DNA of 50,000 nt from Paenibacillus curdlanolyticus YK9. GTDB lineage: Bacteria; Bacillota; Bacilli; Paenibacillales; Paenibacillaceae. A program made the translations under genes and the position numbers. Where the stretch lies: contig NZ_AEDD01000005.1 of the NCBI RefSeq assembly GCF_000179615.1, positions 53,428 through 103,427 of the forward strand, read 5' to 3'. Below the pieces are notes generated by a model. The model had not been told where the DNA came from. It was given only the letters and a program-made list of their open reading frames with translations, and made no database searches. Positions 3,987-10,293 of this stretch are shown one piece after another; position 1 is the first letter of the stretch, and every line of letters begins with the position of its first letter.

Positions 3987-4688
3987 TTGACGAACCCCAA
4001 AAAAATGGCTGCTAAATTCAGAATTAGCGCCAGTACGATAAGAAATTACGAAGCTAAAGGTCTAATACCTCCCGTTGAACGGTCAGCAAATGGCTACCGT
4101 ATTTATACGGACCAGCACGCAGCCTATCTATCGTGTATCCAGGCCATGGCCCCGGCATTCGGAATGGAGGTAACAACTGAGGTGCTGCGTTGTGTCCAAC
4201 AGGACAAGCCGCAAGTTGCAATGTGGATCATCAGGGAAAAGGAAGTCGCTTTGTACGAGAAAAAAGTGACGTTAGAGAGGTTAATCCAGGATATCCGGAT
4301 ATACGCGAGCGGAAGTGCGTCTCCGCATGCCGAGGGGCCATTCACCATCAACGAAGCATCCACATTGACGCAGGTTCCCAAGTCGGCGATTCGCTACTGG
4401 GAGCAAGCAGGATATGTAACGGCAGATCGCGATCCTGACAATCGATATCGTCAATATAACGGAGCCCATTTGCTTAAGATCCGGTTGATTCAAGCGCTGC
4501 AAAGCTCTGTGTATTCAGAGGATACCGTAGGTTTTAAACAAGCTATTGCTGCTGTTGACCATACGGATCTTCAGGGGGTTTTGAGGGTGGCTCAGAATGT
4601 TAGGGGTTATTTGGATAAGATTATTGAGGCTCAGATGGGTGGGGTGGGGTGTTTTTATCAATTGATTCGGTTTACAGAAGCCACTTGA
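3987..4688 (+). CDS. MerR-family regulator with two HTH domains
   Basis: A 233-residue regulator with two separate MerR-type winged HTH modules. The first is K-M-A-A-K-F-R-I-S-A-S-T-I-R-N-Y-E-A-K-G followed by R-S-A-N-G-Y-R-I-Y (about residues 6-45). The second is I-N-E-A-S-T-L-T-Q-V-P-K-S-A-I-R-Y-W-E-Q-A-G followed by D-N-R-Y-R-Q-Y (about 120-160). Both keep the R-x-Y/W-E and N-x-Y-R signatures. Ordinary MerR proteins have one HTH and dimerise through a C-terminal helix, so this one may bind its operator as an intramolecular pair. The TTG at 3987 is preferred because GAGGAG is about ten bases upstream; the in-frame ATG at 3969 overlaps that site. Divergent from the unknown gene ending at 3336. 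Confidence 0.8.
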   Translation: MTNPKKMAAKFRISASTIRNYEAKGLIPPVERSANGYRIYTDQHAAYLSCIQAMAPAFGMEVTTEVLRCVQQDKPQVAMWIIREKEVALYEKKVTLERLIQDIRIYASGSASPHAEGPFTINEASTLTQVPKSAIRYWEQAGYVTADRDPDNRYRQYNGAHLLKIRLIQALQSSVYSEDTVGFKQAIAAVDHTDLQGVLRVAQNVRGYLDKIIEAQMGGVGCFYQLIRFTEAT

Positions 4689-4744
4689 GTTTGGTGCAGC
4701 TCCTTATGAGATATGCAGTTTTTACTAGGTGCTCCACATCTCCT

Positions 4745-5158
4745 TTACTTACAGATAGTAGTCGGCAAGCCAGTACTCAGCTTCTCCGGCTTTCCAAGCA
4801 ACTCACCTTGGTTGCCTATCCGATCTTCGGGGAGCAAAGGTATCGAAAGTAACTGTGAGTGCCACTTTGAATATTTGAGCATATTGCGTCACGTCTGAAT
4901 TCTCAAAAGAATAAAATCGACTTCTAACGTCCACACCCTCTCTCCATTTAAAGGAGAAACCAATATCCGCAGTATTTCCAAGATAGTCAGCATCAATCGC
5001 TCCATCAACATTGAATTTTAAGATTTCGATGGGTTCCACACCCAGAGCAAGCAAAAAACCTGTTGTCTCACCGCGAAAATAAATCCATTTGGACGCGGTG
5101 GGGACCAGCCGGGGTGCCCAGCCGTTATTTATTTGCACCGGGGAACCGTTGGTATATC
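4745..5158 (-). pseudogene. Decayed gene remnant with frameshift
   Basis: Minus-strand coding-like sequence without a good start. From about 5158 it reads ...S-P-V-Q-I-N-N-G-W-A-P-R-L-V-P-T, then W-I-Y-F-R-G-E-T-T-G-F-L-L-A-L-G. It reaches T-F-D-T-F-A-P, where a run of four C (4829-4832) separates it from a better-looking continuation P-E-D-R-I-G-N-Q-G-E-L-L-G-K-P-E-K-L in the next frame, ending at a TAA at 4745. Unshifted, the frame stops at 4803. A stop lies just upstream of 5158 and no ribosome site is present. I do not recognise the parent family. It sits beside the sulfurtransferase fragment at 5338-5400, so this stretch looks like a zone of gene decay. A small intact gene starting at the GTG at 5138 is the alternative. 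Confidence 0.4.
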
Positions 5159-5280
5159 AGCAGTCTCTCTAACAACAGAATTTTAATGTATTTATTTTCC
5201 CGTATTCAGATGCTGCATGAGTTGTTAAAGGGGCAAGTGATGTGATGCTGTAGTAGTGCGAATCTAGGTACAAAGCAAAA

Positions 5281-5307
5281 AGTACATCGTCTCTTGAATG
5301 ATGTACT
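5281..5307. terminator. Hairpin beside sulfurtransferase fragment
   Basis: AGTACATC and GATGTACT pair around an 11-base loop and are preceded by AAAAA on the plus strand (a T-run on minus). It lies downstream of the sulfurtransferase 3' fragment, just as a related hairpin (8046-8085, also an ACATCGTC stem) lies downstream of the intact gene. Confidence 0.55.
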
Positions 5308-5337
5308 CCAAGCCTGATAATGATATGCCTTCAGCGC

Positions 5338-5400
5338 TTACTCTTCTCCTGTCACAATCGGATTCTCCTCATGAGAAATCCAATCGCTCCAGTTAAAGAT
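5338..5400 (-). pseudogene. Fragment of sulfurtransferase gene 3' end
   Basis: Read on the minus strand, these bases encode N-W-S-D-W-I-S-H-E-E-N-P-I-V-T-G-E-E followed by TAA. The intact sulfurtransferase at 8116-8952 ends S-W-S-D-W-I-S-Y-G-E-N-P-I-A-V-K-D-E. The DNA of the two segments is also clearly alignable, including CAATCGGATTCTCC and AATCCAATCGCTCCAG, but not identical. Upstream of N-W the match stops. So this is a partial second copy of the gene's last 19-20 codons, 2.8 kb from the intact gene and on the opposite side of the AT-rich cassette. Such 3'-end copies are typical scars of elements that integrate into, or recombine at, gene ends. Confidence 0.7.
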
Positions 5401-5413
5401 AAAACAACTTATA

Positions 5414-5433
5414 GTACGGTTTCGTACGGTTTC
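5414..5433. repeat. 10-bp tandem direct repeat
   Basis: GTACGGTTTC occurs twice in direct succession between the sulfurtransferase fragment and the AT-rich cassette. It marks the left edge of the compositional shift. I found no matching copy on the right side, so a role as an attachment site is unsupported. Confidence 0.4.
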
Positions 5434-5491
5434 CCTTAACTATTTTAACACCAAAACAAATATGAATAATTAAGTCCAACCTTCCTATAGG

Positions 5492-7177
5492 TTATCCTGA
5501 AATATATTCAATTGTTGCATTAAAAGCAGTATTAAATATTTTTCTAGACTTGACCGGACCAATTAAATATGCCCTTTGAAGATCCTTCTCTTCTGCATTC
5601 AGGACATCTTCAAGAGTATTAAATCCAGCATCTTTAAGTGTCTGACACTGGAAATTTGTAATATCCAAATTATCTATAGATGCACTCAAAAGACTTTTTA
5701 ATACAGCTGCCGAGTCAAACTCAGTACTAATATCTCTTAAAGACTCAGTATTCTCATATGCAGGAGAATTAATCCCGTATTCCGTATATAACTTCACTGA
5801 TAGTCCGGTTATTATTTCTTTATATCTATTTATTGGTGTACTTTTTGATTCGGATGCTAACACAACGCCAAAGTTAATTTGGTATCTATCATAAACCTCG
5901 GTTCGCACTTTTGTACCTTCCGTATGCAATGATACTATTCCGGAGTACTGAAGAATTCTAACCGCTTGTTTTATAACTTCCGGCGCGTCCCTATGGATTG
6001 CAAAATAAATGGTTTGTTGATTTTTTTCTTCTACGACTCTCTTATCATTCTTAATTAAAGTCTCTGCAAGTACTTTGTTCTCAACAAACCATCTACCCCA
6101 ATCAATTAGTTTTTTGTGTCCGTTATATGTTTCTCCAAGCTTTGTATGCTCATTCCAAATATTAGTCCTATAAAAATTTTTAATTGTAGAATTAACCGTA
6201 TTAGTTTTAAGACTTTTTAAGTCCTCACTTGCAATAAAGAGACTTTTCAACAATAATCTTGGATTTCCAGAAGCTGCATAGATCAACGAATTAAAATTCT
6301 CTCCACTTTGCTCAAATATTTTATATACTTTATGATCCACCTGGTTTTTTACAATTTCCCTCATTTTAACGAGGTAATCTTCACTTGTAATATCCCTTTC
6401 TACTTTTTGAACGATTGCATCATGAAAAGATTGAAAGGTTCCATATGATGTTATTCCAGGATAAACTGCTGCCTTGCAACTGATATACGGACATCTTAAA
6501 TCCCTAAACATTGTAAAAAACTCTCGTTGTTGAAGAGGAATTAAATTATGACACGCCTCATCAAAAAGTAATACAATTCGGTTAATTTCACAGGCCTCAC
6601 AAATATCTTCTACAAGCGCTTTAAAGTAATCTGTTTCTTTTAGAACCCCCACTCTACTAGGGTCCACACCAAATAAAGTTCCAATTTGGTCAAATTCACC
6701 TTTTGATTTACTATGCCAAGAGTTCTCTAGTATATATATAAATTCATCAAGTTTTTTTATTATCTCATCTTTGTCCTCAATAAAATTAAAGTATTTACCT
6801 ATTATCCCTGAATTAGTTAATGCAACTCCCTTTTTTTCTAATTTTCTTTTTAATGCAAATAATATCTTTGAAAACATCCAGTTTCTAAAATGGGTTATTT
6901 CATTAGTGGCATCTACAAAAATTGCTTTGCTAAAGCTTACAAACACTGCGAGCTCTCTCTTAGAATTAAAATCATCATCTAACTCTTTTTCAGCAACTCT
7001 TAAAAGCATTGTTTTACCCGTTCCACGACTGCCTTCTAGCAACACAGGTGATTTTCCTTTGAGATAATTAAGATTATCCCTGTCCATCTTGGTTTCAACA
7101 AAGATGTTTGTTAGATCTTTTGGTTTTATATCTTCAGTTCGAAATATAAACTCTTCGTCATAATTATAATTAGACAT
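5492..7177 (-). CDS. ORC/STAND-like P-loop ATPase with C-terminal HhH
   Basis: A 561-residue ATPase. Walker A is G-S-R-G-T-G-K-T (49-56) and Walker B is I-V-L-L-F-D-E-A (201-208). G-N-P-R-L-L-L (304-310) is the sensor-2-like motif of ORC/CDC6 and STAND NTPases. The middle region (about 340-460) looks like a winged-helix or alpha-helical arm. The last 50 residues (L-K-D-A-G-F-N-T-L-E-D-V-L-N-A, then L-I-G-P-V-K-S-R-K-I) form a helix-hairpin-helix module of the kind that contacts DNA. It overlaps the upstream gene by one base (TAATG), so the pair is translationally coupled. The DNA is strikingly AT-rich (lines sampled by eye are about 25-35% GC, against more than 50% nearby), pointing to horizontal transfer. 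Likely role: sensor or switch of a defence or toxin-antitoxin module. Function is inferred, not shown. Confidence 0.8.
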   Translation of the reverse strand: MSNYNYDEEFIFRTEDIKPKDLTNIFVETKMDRDNLNYLKGKSPVLLEGSRGTGKTMLLRVAEKELDDDFNSKRELAVFVSFSKAIFVDATNEITHFRNWMFSKILFALKRKLEKKGVALTNSGIIGKYFNFIEDKDEIIKKLDEFIYILENSWHSKSKGEFDQIGTLFGVDPSRVGVLKETDYFKALVEDICEACEINRIVLLFDEACHNLIPLQQREFFTMFRDLRCPYISCKAAVYPGITSYGTFQSFHDAIVQKVERDITSEDYLVKMREIVKNQVDHKVYKIFEQSGENFNSLIYAASGNPRLLLKSLFIASEDLKSLKTNTVNSTIKNFYRTNIWNEHTKLGETYNGHKKLIDWGRWFVENKVLAETLIKNDKRVVEEKNQQTIYFAIHRDAPEVIKQAVRILQYSGIVSLHTEGTKVRTEVYDRYQINFGVVLASESKSTPINRYKEIITGLSVKLYTEYGINSPAYENTESLRDISTEFDSAAVLKSLLSASIDNLDITNFQCQTLKDAGFNTLEDVLNAEEKDLQRAYLIGPVKSRKIFNTAFNATIEYISG

Positions 7178-7875
7178 TAGTTCAATATACCTCCAAGATG
7201 ATAATCAACAAGCATTTCCTTTAAACTTAATTTTTTATCCTCACTAAAGTTATTTGCAACATCTTGAAATCTTATAACTAATATAATATTCACTAATTTA
7301 GCGACCTGCATAAACACACTTGACCAGGCAACAAATTTATCTTGTTGATGTAATATCTTTTCCCCTTCCGTGGTATGCATATATTGAAATTTACCGTGTA
7401 CATATTCAGAACACATTCTATATGTATCTTTAACATTTTCAATAAACTCTTGTACATCATAATCTCTTAAAAATAGGGATAAATATTTCCTTGACAGCAC
7501 ACCAGTGTTCTCATCCTTAAGTGTCGACCACTTTATATCGTAGTCATTCACCTTCCATAATAAATACTCATAATTACTATCAACAAAATAAATGAAACTT
7601 AGACCAAGCTCTAAGGCACTTCGTAGACATATATACGCATTTCTATACATTCCCTGAGCAGATATATATAAAGATGAAAGCATATCATAGCATACTTCTT
7701 TTAAGACAACATTTTGATCTAGATTATTTAAACCCATTTCCCAATGATTAAGCATTTCTAATGCTAACATCATTTCTGAAAATATTGCAGAGTTCTCATT
7801 GAATGCAACTATTGCATTTTCAGATAATTCCCCAGACGATTGAATCATAAAATCTCGAATATTTATTTGCATCAT
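7177..7875 (-). CDS. HEPN-like candidate RNase, partner of ATPase
   Basis: A 232-residue, largely helical protein with no signal peptide. Helix Y-R-N-A-Y-I-C-L-R-S-A-L-E-L-G (77-91) is followed by T-Y-R-M-C-S-E-Y-V-H-G, in which Arg153 and His160 are separated by six residues. That fits the R-x4-6-H catalytic motif of HEPN nucleases, and the Y-V-H-G context resembles HEPN-like proteins that carry an R-x-A-x-E-x-G helix before the motif. An ATG at 7875 (a second is the next codon) follows AGGAGAACTTA. The gene ends in TAATG shared with the ATPase start. It is AT-rich like its partner. A possible promoter is TTGTAG-N17-TAGTAT in the 7900-7950 region. The HEPN call rests on one motif and the helical pattern, so it may be only a structural HEPN or an unrelated helical protein. 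Confidence 0.65.
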   Translation of the reverse strand: MMQINIRDFMIQSSGELSENAIVAFNENSAIFSEMMLALEMLNHWEMGLNNLDQNVVLKEVCYDMLSSLYISAQGMYRNAYICLRSALELGLSFIYFVDSNYEYLLWKVNDYDIKWSTLKDENTGVLSRKYLSLFLRDYDVQEFIENVKDTYRMCSEYVHGKFQYMHTTEGEKILHQQDKFVAWSSVFMQVAKLVNIILVIRFQDVANNFSEDKKLSLKEMLVDYHLGGILN

Positions 7876-8004
7876 TAAGTTCTCCTATATGGAAAATGTC
7901 ACTATTACTATACTATCATTTCCTTTTAGGCCCTACAATTACTAATAACATTTACATCATTGACAAAAATCCGTGAGGTTGATTTTCAATCAACATGCTA
8001 ATAA

Positions 8005-8037
8005 AAGAAGCCAATTGTAAATCCGCATTGGCTTCTT
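8005..8037. terminator. Hairpin, possible terminator
   Basis: AAGAAGCCAAT and ATTGGCTTCTT form a perfect 11-base stem around an 11-base loop. It lies between the AT-rich cassette and the sulfurtransferase gene, with no plus-strand gene ending nearby. It could be a second barrier against read-through from the sulfurtransferase, or a relic of the cassette's own border. Confidence 0.5.
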
Positions 8038-8045
8038 GGTATAAA

Positions 8046-8085
8046 AATACATCGTCCAATGCTAGCACCTTCATGACGATGTATT
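8046..8085 (-). terminator. Terminator after sulfurtransferase
   Basis: AATACATCGTC and GACGATGTATT form a perfect 11-base stem about 30 bases after the sulfurtransferase stop, with AAAA (T-run on minus) beyond it. Its stem core ACATCGTC recurs at 5283, beside the sulfurtransferase fragment. Confidence 0.7.
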
Positions 8086-8115
8086 CAAACTTTACATTTT
8101 TTGAACCCTTATCTC

Positions 8116-8952
8116 TTACTCGTCCTTCACCGCAATCGGATTCTCCCCATAACTAATCCAATCGCTCCAGCTCCCCGCATACAACCGCACCTTCTCAAAG
8201 CCCGCTTCCTGCAGCGCCAGCACGTTCGGGCAAGCCGTCACGCCTGACCCACAATACACGATCGTCTGCTTCGCACGATCCAACCCTTCAAATCTTGCCG
8301 CCTGCTCCTCCACACTCTTCCACTTACCGTCCGCGCCGCGGCCTTCGGCCCAGAAGCGGTTTATCGCGCCGGGGATGTGGCCTGCCACGCGGTCGATGGG
8401 CTCAACCTCGCCGCGATAACGAGGCGCTTCGCGGGAATCGATCAGCGTGATGCTCTCATTGCCGAGGTTCTCGCGCACTTCGTCGACTTCAACGAGCATG
8501 CTGTGCTGAACGGTCGCGTAGAAAGGCGATTGAATGCTCACCGAAGGCTCGTTCGATACCGGATAGCCTGCCTTTTCCCATGCTGCGAAGCCTTCGTCTA
8601 AAACGTATACTTCCTCGTGTCCGAGGTATTTCAACAGCCACCACAAGCGCGATGCCATCGCTCCGCCTTGGTCATCATACGCGACAACACGCGTTGTATT
8701 GCTGATGCCGACACGGCCCAAAGTTCCCGTCAGCTGTGCGATGTCCGGCAGCGGATGGCGTCCGCCATTCTCTTCGATCGGCGAGGATAGATCCTTTTCC
8801 AGATCTAGATAAACAGCCCCTGCAATATGCGATGCTTCATAGGCTTCGCGGCCTGCATCCGGCTTGCCCAGCTGGAATCGGCAGTCGACGATAACGACAT
8901 CAGAATCTTCCTTATGATCAAGCAGCCATTGCAGCGATACGATATTTTTCAT
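8116..8952 (-). CDS. sseA: Sulfurtransferase, 3-mercaptopyruvate type
   Basis: A 278-residue cytoplasmic protein with two rhodanese domains. The N-terminal inactive domain has V-I-V-D-C-R-F and H-I-A-G-A-V-Y-L-D; the C-terminal domain has I-D-S-R-E, H-I-P-G-A and the active-site loop C-G-S-G-V-T-A (Cys234). The loop C-G-S-G-V-T is typical of 3-mercaptopyruvate sulfurtransferases, while thiosulfate sulfurtransferases usually have C-R-K-G-V-T. The enzyme moves sulfur through a Cys persulfide. The start at 8952 (M-K-N-I-V-S-L) matches the family N-terminus; an ATG three codons earlier crowds the ribosome site. A diverged copy of its last codons lies at 5338-5400. The substrate call is from the loop only. 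Confidence 0.88.
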   Translation of the reverse strand: MKNIVSLQWLLDHKEDSDVVIVDCRFQLGKPDAGREAYEASHIAGAVYLDLEKDLSSPIEENGGRHPLPDIAQLTGTLGRVGISNTTRVVAYDDQGGAMASRLWWLLKYLGHEEVYVLDEGFAAWEKAGYPVSNEPSVSIQSPFYATVQHSMLVEVDEVRENLGNESITLIDSREAPRYRGEVEPIDRVAGHIPGAINRFWAEGRGADGKWKSVEEQAARFEGLDRAKQTIVYCGSGVTACPNVLALQEAGFEKVRLYAGSWSDWISYGENPIAVKDE

Positions 8953-9024
8953 AACATTCATCCGCCTCTCTAAACTTGTCCTTATAGCAGAATTATACAA
9001 CATTCCAGGGGCAGAGATGCAAAA

Positions 9025-9058
9025 AAGGACCGCCAGACAATAAAGTCTGACCGTCCTT
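9025..9058 (-). terminator. Terminator after first MFS gene
   Basis: AAGGACCGCCAGAC and GTCTGACCGTCCTT pair with few mismatches around AATAAA. On the minus strand the stem is followed by a run of T, placed about 36 bases after the MFS stop. Confidence 0.8.
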
Positions 9059-9093
9059 CCATTCTGCATGATCCCTGCATCTGAGCGCTGCTA

Positions 9094-10293
9094 TCACGCA
9101 GACGTCGCATCCGCCAGCTTGCGCGTCTTACGCGAAGCGATTATTGCCCAGGCAATGACGGCCAACATTGCAACAGCGAAAACAACGAATAGCCATCGCA
9201 TGTCCTCAACGCCATTGCGGTCAATGAACCAGCCCGTCAGCTTCGGCATGAACGCCCCGCCGACGCCGCCGAACATCATCAGGAAGCTGATCGTTTTCTC
9301 ATTCGAGCCCGGCAGAGCCCGGCTGGAGAAGACAATTGCAATCGAATACATTCCCGACATGACAAGTCCCATACCGAATGCGAGAGCAAACATACCTCCG
9401 GTGCTTTCGGTAATGCCAAGGATCAGGAACAGCACTGCGGATGCCGAGCACGTAACCAACATATATGGCGCGCCGCCCCAACGATCGGCGATGTGTCCGG
9501 ACACAAGCCGACCAAGCACCATCGCGCCCCAATACACGCTAAGCGACAGCGATGCCGACGCATCGCTCAGCCCGTTGTTAACGAGCAGCGATGGGAAGTA
9601 GTGTACGAGACTGATTTCGAACCCGACATACACAGCGATGAAAAGTCCGCAGGCGAGCATGATAATATTTCGGCGCGACCGGCTGATGCTGGCTTGTGCC
9701 TGCGCGCTCTTGAGCTCAGCTTCCTTCGCCTCTTCCTTGGATTGGTCGAGCTCACGCGGCCAGAATACCAGCCATAGGATAAGGGTAACGATGGCAAGCA
9801 CGCTTACGACAGCAAATCCCGTCATCCAGTTGCCGCTGGATATGAGCGGAGCGCCTGCGAACGGCATGAGCAGCGCGCCTACGCCGAACGAAACCTCGAC
9901 TCTGCTCATCGCCACGTTGGCGTTATTGCCTGCAGTCAGAATAATGAATGAAGCCACGACCGCCTCGGTCGTACCGAAGCCGAAGCCCGCGATCGGCCCC
10001 GTAATGAGCATCATCAGCCACGGCGGCTGGAACGCATAAATACTTTCGGCTAACACCATGCAGGCGAGCGCCGTTAACAGCAGCTTCTTTTTGCCCAGCA
10101 GTCTCATTAGCCACGGCGCGAGCAGTACCCCTGCCACGCCTCCGAGAAACTGGTTCATGACGAGCTGCCCGCCATCCCCATACTGTACGCCATATGCATG
10201 AACCATCGGCTCCATGACGGTTCCGACGACGAGTTGTCCAAGCCCGACGACCAAAAATGCAATACAACCCAAGATGACTAGTCTGGTCATCAT
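9094..10293 (-). CDS. MFS transporter
   Basis: A 399-residue major facilitator with about 12 hydrophobic segments. It has a charged central loop (about residues 185-210, rich in Glu, Lys and Ser) and the inter-helix motif G-R-L-V-S-G-H-I-A-D-R-W-G in the second half. The closest look is to FucP/YfkF-like sugar or drug MFS proteins, but the substrate cannot be read from sequence. The ATG at 10293 is preferred over the track's GTG-type start 15 codons upstream because GGAAGGGG precedes it. It is a paralogue of the next gene, in the same orientation, sharing the N-terminal pattern L-x-I-G/L-G-C-x-x-x-L-x-x-G-L and the G-x-G-F-G-x-x-E-A-x-V motif. The two are separated by a terminator, so they are independent units. 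Confidence 0.85.
   Translation of the reverse strand: MMTRLVILGCIAFLVVGLGQLVVGTVMEPMVHAYGVQYGDGGQLVMNQFLGGVAGVLLAPWLMRLLGKKKLLLTALACMVLAESIYAFQPPWLMMLITGPIAGFGFGTTEAVVASFIILTAGNNANVAMSRVEVSFGVGALLMPFAGAPLISSGNWMTGFAVVSVLAIVTLILWLVFWPRELDQSKEEAKEAELKSAQAQASISRSRRNIIMLACGLFIAVYVGFEISLVHYFPSLLVNNGLSDASASLSLSVYWGAMVLGRLVSGHIADRWGGAPYMLVTCSASAVLFLILGITESTGGMFALAFGMGLVMSGMYSIAIVFSSRALPGSNEKTISFLMMFGGVGGAFMPKLTGWFIDRNGVEDMRWLFVVFAVAMLAVIAWAIIASRKTRKLADATSA

Follow-up and report, generated by a model that had tools for sequence, protein, structure and literature searches.

HEPN domains have been described in combination with STAND NTPases (PMC3710099) and, in DUF499 systems, as fusions with an ORC/STAND-type ATPase (PMC12839542). 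In a stretch of 50,000 nucleotides from Paenibacillus curdlanolyticus YK9 (contig NZ_AEDD01000005.1, positions 53,428 to 103,427 of the forward strand; hereafter the window), we analysed by calculation two adjacent genes that encode these protein types separately, a HEPN-like protein followed by an ORC/Cdc6-STAND-type AAA+ ATPase. We consider it probable, with real room for doubt, that this pair works as a stand-alone unit of abortive-infection defence, two genes that have spread by horizontal transfer, in which the ATPase controls a HEPN RNase. Fusions of the two are already known; the separate two-gene unit is apparently undescribed and unnamed, and the open-licence literature, as far as it was covered, yielded no description of an ORC-like ATPase with a separate HEPN gene, which is not proof of absence.

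Several described systems come close to this arrangement. PARIS resembles it in being a two-gene cassette of an ATPase and an RNA-cutting effector, found in P4-like satellites and prophages (PMC9122126), and its AriB, a TOPRIM nuclease, cuts tRNA (PMC12409363). PARIS is, however, detected with AAA_15/AAA_21 and DUF4435 models (PMC9122126), whereas the components here are an ORC/Cdc6-STAND-type ATPase and a HEPN-like partner; the window proteins match none of AriA, AriB or DUF4435 in Pfam and PADLOC, and AriA and AriB in PADLOC match none of the 78 ATPases of the family that we aligned. In the type IX retron (retron-Kva2), composed of a reverse transcriptase, a winged-helix protein and a HEPN RNase, a HEPN dimer is sequestered within a larger complex, activated by infection and cuts tRNA (PMC13405049). 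That system needs the reverse transcriptase and multicopy single-stranded DNA (msDNA), and its HEPN is without the canonical motif (PMC13405049), whereas the window pair has no reverse transcriptase and a near-invariant R-x6-H. DUF499-centred BREX-related systems also join a STAND/ORC-Cdc6-type ATPase to an N-terminal HEPN, but in those systems one protein contains both HEPN and a BrxC-like ATPase, and a methyltransferase and a helicase belong to the core (PMC12839542); here the genes are separate, the ATPase is smaller with a C-terminal helix-hairpin-helix, and the open reading frame (ORF) list, read but not scanned against profile libraries, has no methyltransferase or helicase beside the window pair. 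HEPN-MNT toxin-antitoxin pairs likewise place a HEPN protein beside a regulator, which is a nucleotidyltransferase there and an AAA+ ATPase here. Lastly, the Orc/Cdc6 counter-invader systems of a Dnd/Ssp survey, SspC included, share with the pair the use of ORC/Cdc6 controllers in mobile conflict loci, and HEPN is listed with the endoRNases of Dnd neighbourhoods and also occurs fused to DndF (PMC10853773). The Orc/Cdc6 partners given in the available part of that survey are restriction endonucleases, HerA/FtsK, triple winged helix-turn-helix proteins, a second Orc/Cdc6 and a KAP NTPase, with no separate HEPN gene (PMC10853773).

An earlier sequence-only reading of this DNA had recognised no named system with this pair. 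The ATPase family has no strong model match in PADLOC-DB 2.0.0, where the window ATPase finds nothing at 1e-3. The best models over the 78 ATPases, both weak, were mad8 (1.3e-5; 19/78) and PDC-S01 (2.8e-4; 14/78), with mad8 aligning to the P-loop region of the window ATPase (residues 40-109, E 0.0013). In NCBIfam, the models for Sll1717-family ATPases (30.8 bits against a cut-off of 75) and the DS41_1 antiphage protein (18.9 against 370) fell short.

Both genes are intact on the minus strand, and the stop of the first overlaps the start of the second as TAATG at window position 7177, just as had been read (Table 1). Shine-Dalgarno-like sequences stand at both starts (AGGAG for the HEPN ATG, GGAGG for the ATPase ATG). 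A promoter scan gave 15 sites against 13.9 expected and hence no support for a promoter, and an Rfam scan of window positions 4500-9200 gave no match. The claim that the pair is AT-rich was borne out, the lowest GC among 477 sub-windows of 2384 bases (step 100) falling here; the accompanying claim that GC exceeds 50% around it holds for the high-coordinate flank only, the low-coordinate flank being at 42-48%. Both genes look to be under purifying selection, with ratios of nonsynonymous to synonymous substitution (dN/dS) of about 0.03 for the ATPase and 0.08 for the HEPN gene in one orthologue pair (loci L025 and L026; dS about 1.2).

Table 1. Coordinates of the gene pair, its motifs and the flanking site (positions in the window; fractions are alignment rows).
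Feature	Position	Strand	Remarks
HEPN-like protein gene, 232 aa	7177..7875	-	first gene of the pair; intact ORF
ORC/Cdc6-STAND-type AAA+ ATPase gene, 561 aa	5492..7177	-	second gene of the pair; intact ORF
AT-rich segment holding the pair	5400..8030		GC 0.317 against 0.52 in the rest of the window
R153-x6-H160 motif (RMCSEYVH) of HEPN-like protein	7396..7419	-	R 72/75, H 75/75
Walker A GSRGTGKT, residues 49-56	7010..7033	-	G49, S50, R51, G52, G54, K55 in 78/78
Walker B LFDEA, residues 204-208	6554..6568	-	D206, E207, A208 in 78/78
GNPR, probable sensor 2, residues 304-307	6257..6268	-	78/78
C-terminal helix-hairpin-helix, RNA polymerase alpha-CTD-like, residues 504-561	5495..5668	-	profile matches and model helices
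Rhodanese gene 3' end, near side of the pair	8106..8170		rhodanese gene 8116-9069 (-)
Diverged duplicate of rhodanese 3' end, far side of the pair	5328..5392		75% identical to 8106-8170 over 65 nt

The second protein is an ORC/Cdc6-STAND-type AAA+ ATPase with a helix-hairpin-helix like that of the RNA polymerase alpha C-terminal domain (alpha-CTD). To collect relatives, we scanned GTDB genomes using eight close ATPases as queries, confirmed 109 and kept the best 80; the ATPase alignment holds 77/80 of these loci, with L074, L080 and L086 removed for starts that were incomplete as called. The Walker A, Walker B and GNPR motifs picked out by eye are all present and their core is invariant; the sensor-2 label of GNPR, given by the earlier reader, is probable. 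The AAA+ core therefore carries both Walker motifs and the sensor motif looked for in ATPases of the ORC/Cdc6-STAND clade. Its Pfam ORC-CDC6-like match reaches 41.8 bits (cut-off 27) and covers only profile positions 6-51 of 571; the top Foldseek rows for its model are Cdc6/Orc1 (E 1.7e-6), and further matches include CED-4 and the RADAR defence protein RdrA. Where a C-terminal winged helix would follow the lid, residues 391-442 of the model show a strand-helix-strand-strand pattern, and in the whole-protein search the alignment to 2qen/2fna runs through residue 444. The C-terminal helix-hairpin-helix, likewise foreseen, matches the RNA polymerase alpha-CTD in Pfam at E 0.0059, below Pfam's cut-off, and PDB 3ihq with the family profile at E 0.0012, weak matches that agree with each other. 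Positions 461-519 of the ATPase profile also weakly match one 319-residue frame in each of six genomes (E 0.001), which is presumably rpoA.

The first protein looks like a HEPN-like, putative RNA-cutting enzyme, an assignment made because of its predicted fold and motif and not its overall sequence. Its model is all-helical, as had been expected, and HEPN domains lead the structural matches. Of the five highest fold-search rows, three carry HEPN in the title, and the other two we take to be HEPN domains as well. The predicted R-x6-H is there, the arginine being replaced by H in the remaining 3/75 rows, and S156 and G161 are each found in 75/75 rows of an alignment that covers 74/80 loci (a filter of 210-300 residues removed L036, L039, L041, L048, L063 and L094). 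Profiles from Pfam, NCBIfam, PHROGs and PADLOC gave weak matches or none, among them a PADLOC match to a Csx1/Csm6 CARF+HEPN model at E 0.0075, and a PDB sequence search gave nothing useful. Mean column identity is about 22% for the HEPN-like protein and about 50% for the ATPase.

Homologues of the two genes keep constant company. The HEPN-like gene lies directly upstream on the same strand at 80/80 kept ATPase loci, which represent 12 phyla. With starts left as called, the gap is within 110 bases at 77/80 loci and the ORFs overlap at 40/80; in L036 and L063 the contig ends within the partner, and in L039 and L094 the partner is split into two ORFs. In the Nostoc copy (L039:8101-9985) about 0.95 kb separates the pieces of the HEPN-like gene, and the other split copy is at L094:935-1669. 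Across the window's order (392 genomes), 8 genomes match the HEPN profile and 20 match the ATPase profile (E 1e-5). All 8 HEPN genes adjoin the ATPase; the other 12 ATPase matches are without this HEPN and distant except in G054, where the match is a 91-residue fragment (63% identity) with a stop near the contig end. A plasmid search returned five records matching the ATPase, and in the Planktothrix record this HEPN is present too. The two proteins diverge in step: their pairwise distances have a correlation of r 0.757 (72 pairs), whereas 1000 permutations reached 0.204 at most. Linked genes inherited vertically would show such a correlation as well.

A HEPN gene that never occurs without its ATPase in the order (8/8) is also what one expects of a toxin, and the pair could be a toxin-antitoxin system in which the HEPN RNase is toxic alone, the ATPase is a large silencing antitoxin and phage defence is secondary if it occurs at all. 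The overlap of the genes, the toxin-like gene coming first and the spread between distant hosts suit such a system, and known pairs join HEPN with nucleotidyltransferases (PMC3710099). An ATPase that is large, better conserved than the HEPN-like protein and fully conserved in its catalytic motifs would nevertheless be more like a sensor or motor, and we regard the toxin-antitoxin explanation as rather unlikely.

The location of the pair in the window links it to a site of gene exchange. On one side of the pair a rhodanese gene ends (its best PDB match has E 2e-40), and on the other lies a diverged duplicate of this 3' end, which scores 51.8 bits where shuffled sequence reached at most 28.3. 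A further rhodanese 3'-end or terminator copy lies downstream of the gene in 5/5 testable genomes (the window and congeners G001-G004; loci L118-L121); these copies score 44.6-121 bits, and the shuffle maxima were 27.4-30.1. G005 was left out, its contig edge following the rhodanese gene; the G002 probe lay a few bases off the stop codon, and in G001 the best copy is the terminator alone, its gene-end copy scoring 31.9 bits. The cargo between the copies differs, spans about 1 to 7 kb and includes single defence-type genes. It consists, in G003, the closest congener, of a lone 565-residue OLD/AriA/NsnB-like ATPase (L118:6318-8015; PADLOC matches NsnB 7.6e-30, AriA 1.3e-27 and Old 1.4e-19), in G001 of the PADLOC candidate system PDC-M11A/B (7e-141 and 9.9e-49), and in G004 of a set of genes that look ordinary on reading, at GC 0.47; the PADLOC scan of cargo covered G001 and G003. 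Because the cargo differs, the rhodanese site is a hotspot of gene turnover, with matches to defence models in two of the four other genomes examined. It looks like a hotspot that accepts cassettes through an enzyme acting from elsewhere, and no recombinase-sized ORF lies between the copies in the window. A search of the open-licence literature yielded no paper on this site.

Both genes of the pair are absent from 5/5 congeners, where the ATPase profile weakly matches only the 319-residue frame, and blastn of window positions 4666-8120 against the syntenic congener G003 found no colinear match, only one 77-base stretch matching elsewhere. A housekeeping pair, syntenic across Paenibacillus and of normal composition, is ruled out by this absence and by the rarity of the HEPN gene in the order (8/392 genomes).

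Beyond the window, the pair has likely undergone some horizontal transfer, and it does not appear to mix freely: the ATPase tree requires 21 changes of phylum label, where the minimum is 11 and the shuffle mean 44.8. In IMG/VR, seven viral contigs carry the pair, with both genes in 7/7. Within a few kilobases, L116 has terminase and major head genes, L115 a phage-type primase, L112 a portal gene and L113 lysis genes. We take L116 to be P2-like and L115 to be P4-like. These two settings recall the P4- and P2-like defence hotspots described in PMC9122126. Among INPHARED phages, the ATPase had no match, nor did the phage-borne copy L116 as DNA. A tmRNA gene precedes the pair in Paenibacillus sp. 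RC67 (L025), and in Ruegeria (L051) identical 46-base repeats flank the segment with the pair, one repeat being the 3' end of tRNA-Gln. Flanking repeats were compared at 70/80 loci with a control of 70 mismatched flanks from other loci, a control without a guard against repeats dispersed within one genome. Eight loci score at least 38 bits against a control maximum of 27.4; at least 15 exceed that maximum, of which at least seven, at 28.3-30.1 bits, were not counted.

Such settings raise the question of whether the pair serves the elements that carry it, the ATPase assisting transposition or replication while bound to DNA, in the manner of TnsC, MuB or ORC, with the helical protein as its adaptor and not an RNase. 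The neighbours argue otherwise. In 146 first-neighbour ORFs and 141 second-neighbour ORFs (the latter against PADLOC only; ORFs of 80-1600 residues called by a simple greedy rule, first 25 families per scan listed), Phage_integrase and DDE_Tnp_1 each match just 2/146. Between the window repeats, no ORF of at least 80 residues exists beyond the pair and one antisense ORF; the pair is cargo of different elements and sites, and its R-x6-H is near-invariant. A role in the element's own biology is therefore very improbable in our view.

The same scans bear on whether the pair is a restriction-like accessory for which neighbouring genes would have to modify the DNA, as in phosphorothioate or BREX-related systems. 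On plasmid p2 of Planktothrix agardhii (L021), the pair lies among genes for a DUF4007 protein, a 1170-residue protein, a PAPS-reductase-family protein, a DEAD/DEAH helicase and an ATP-binding protein, a setting that by analogy recalls a phosphorothioate Ssp-type locus. The DUF4007 and PAPS-reductase-family neighbours would suit such an accessory, as would two plasmid-borne distant relatives that follow a DNA methyltransferase gene and the type I methyltransferase models that match 2/141 second neighbours. Among the families listed, however, none matches more than 2/146 first or 5/141 second neighbours of the 80 loci; beside the window pair, reading the ORFs (without a library scan) revealed no modification gene. 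We give this explanation little credence, no more than the one based on the biology of the elements. The commonest PADLOC model among second neighbours is mad2, with 5/141.

The ATPase family extends beyond this pair. We aligned nine partners of distant ATPases, taken from plasmids and from the window's order. Five downstream partners (L011, L013, L022-L024) share RH-x2-VH, that is R-x4-H, in 5/5, and two of them match Pfam HEPN_RiboL-PSP below its cut-off. The ATPase family thus seems to have a second HEPN-type family as a partner. L023 and L024 begin with a gene for a DNA methyltransferase, followed by the ATPase and the R-x4-H protein; these three-gene sets lie at L023:3697-7636 and L024:3730-7535, on Rhizobium and Cupriavidus plasmids. 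A third class of partner, upstream and about 260 residues long (L012, L014, L015, L016), conserves S-K-G-x-H-x-E; no conserved R-x4-6-H was found in these four, and the three scanned (L012, L014, L015) had no Pfam match. More speculatively, and with less confidence than we place in the defence role of the window pair, the ORC/Cdc6-like ATPase with a putative DNA-binding C-terminus (predicted winged helix plus alpha-CTD-like helix-hairpin-helix) might sense DNA and serve as a general switch to which one HEPN RNase or another can be coupled. It would form on invading DNA, rearrange and license RNA cleavage, a machine resembling a replication initiator thereby answering foreign DNA with translation arrest. 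The upstream R-x6-H type and the downstream R-x4-H type, which in some cases follows a methyltransferase, would then be variants within a single defence superfamily that has no name yet.

While the genes, their motifs and conservation, the predicted folds, the constant pairing, the mobility and the site come from calculation, the working of the window pair as an abortive-infection module is inferred, from its oligomeric state and the sensing of DNA to its RNase activity, target RNA, trigger and role against phages. The HEPN-like protein would be the effector, an RNase that is probably dimeric and cuts tRNA or other RNA, and the ATPase would be the controller, probably oligomeric, that holds or licenses the HEPN-like protein and senses infection. 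Sensing would most simply occur through nucleic acid bound at the winged-helix-like and helix-hairpin-helix parts of the ATPase C-terminus, and the helix-hairpin-helix suggests that nucleic acid, perhaps phage DNA, may be part of the trigger. Infection would cause an ATP-dependent rearrangement that frees or activates the HEPN-like protein, so that RNA is cut and growth stops.

One phage-borne copy, used as a DNA query, had no match among the 5,426 complete genomes of E. coli searched, a search that would miss relatives of less than about 65-70% identity, and E. coli-centred screens may therefore have missed the pair. If the defence reading is true, the pair would be a widespread bacterial immune module, present in 12 phyla among the 80 kept loci and unrecognised by PADLOC. 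In it, an ATPase of the replication-initiator type would be joined with an effector that cuts RNA, and it would offer a clean two-gene test case for how ORC/STAND sensing is turned into RNA cleavage.
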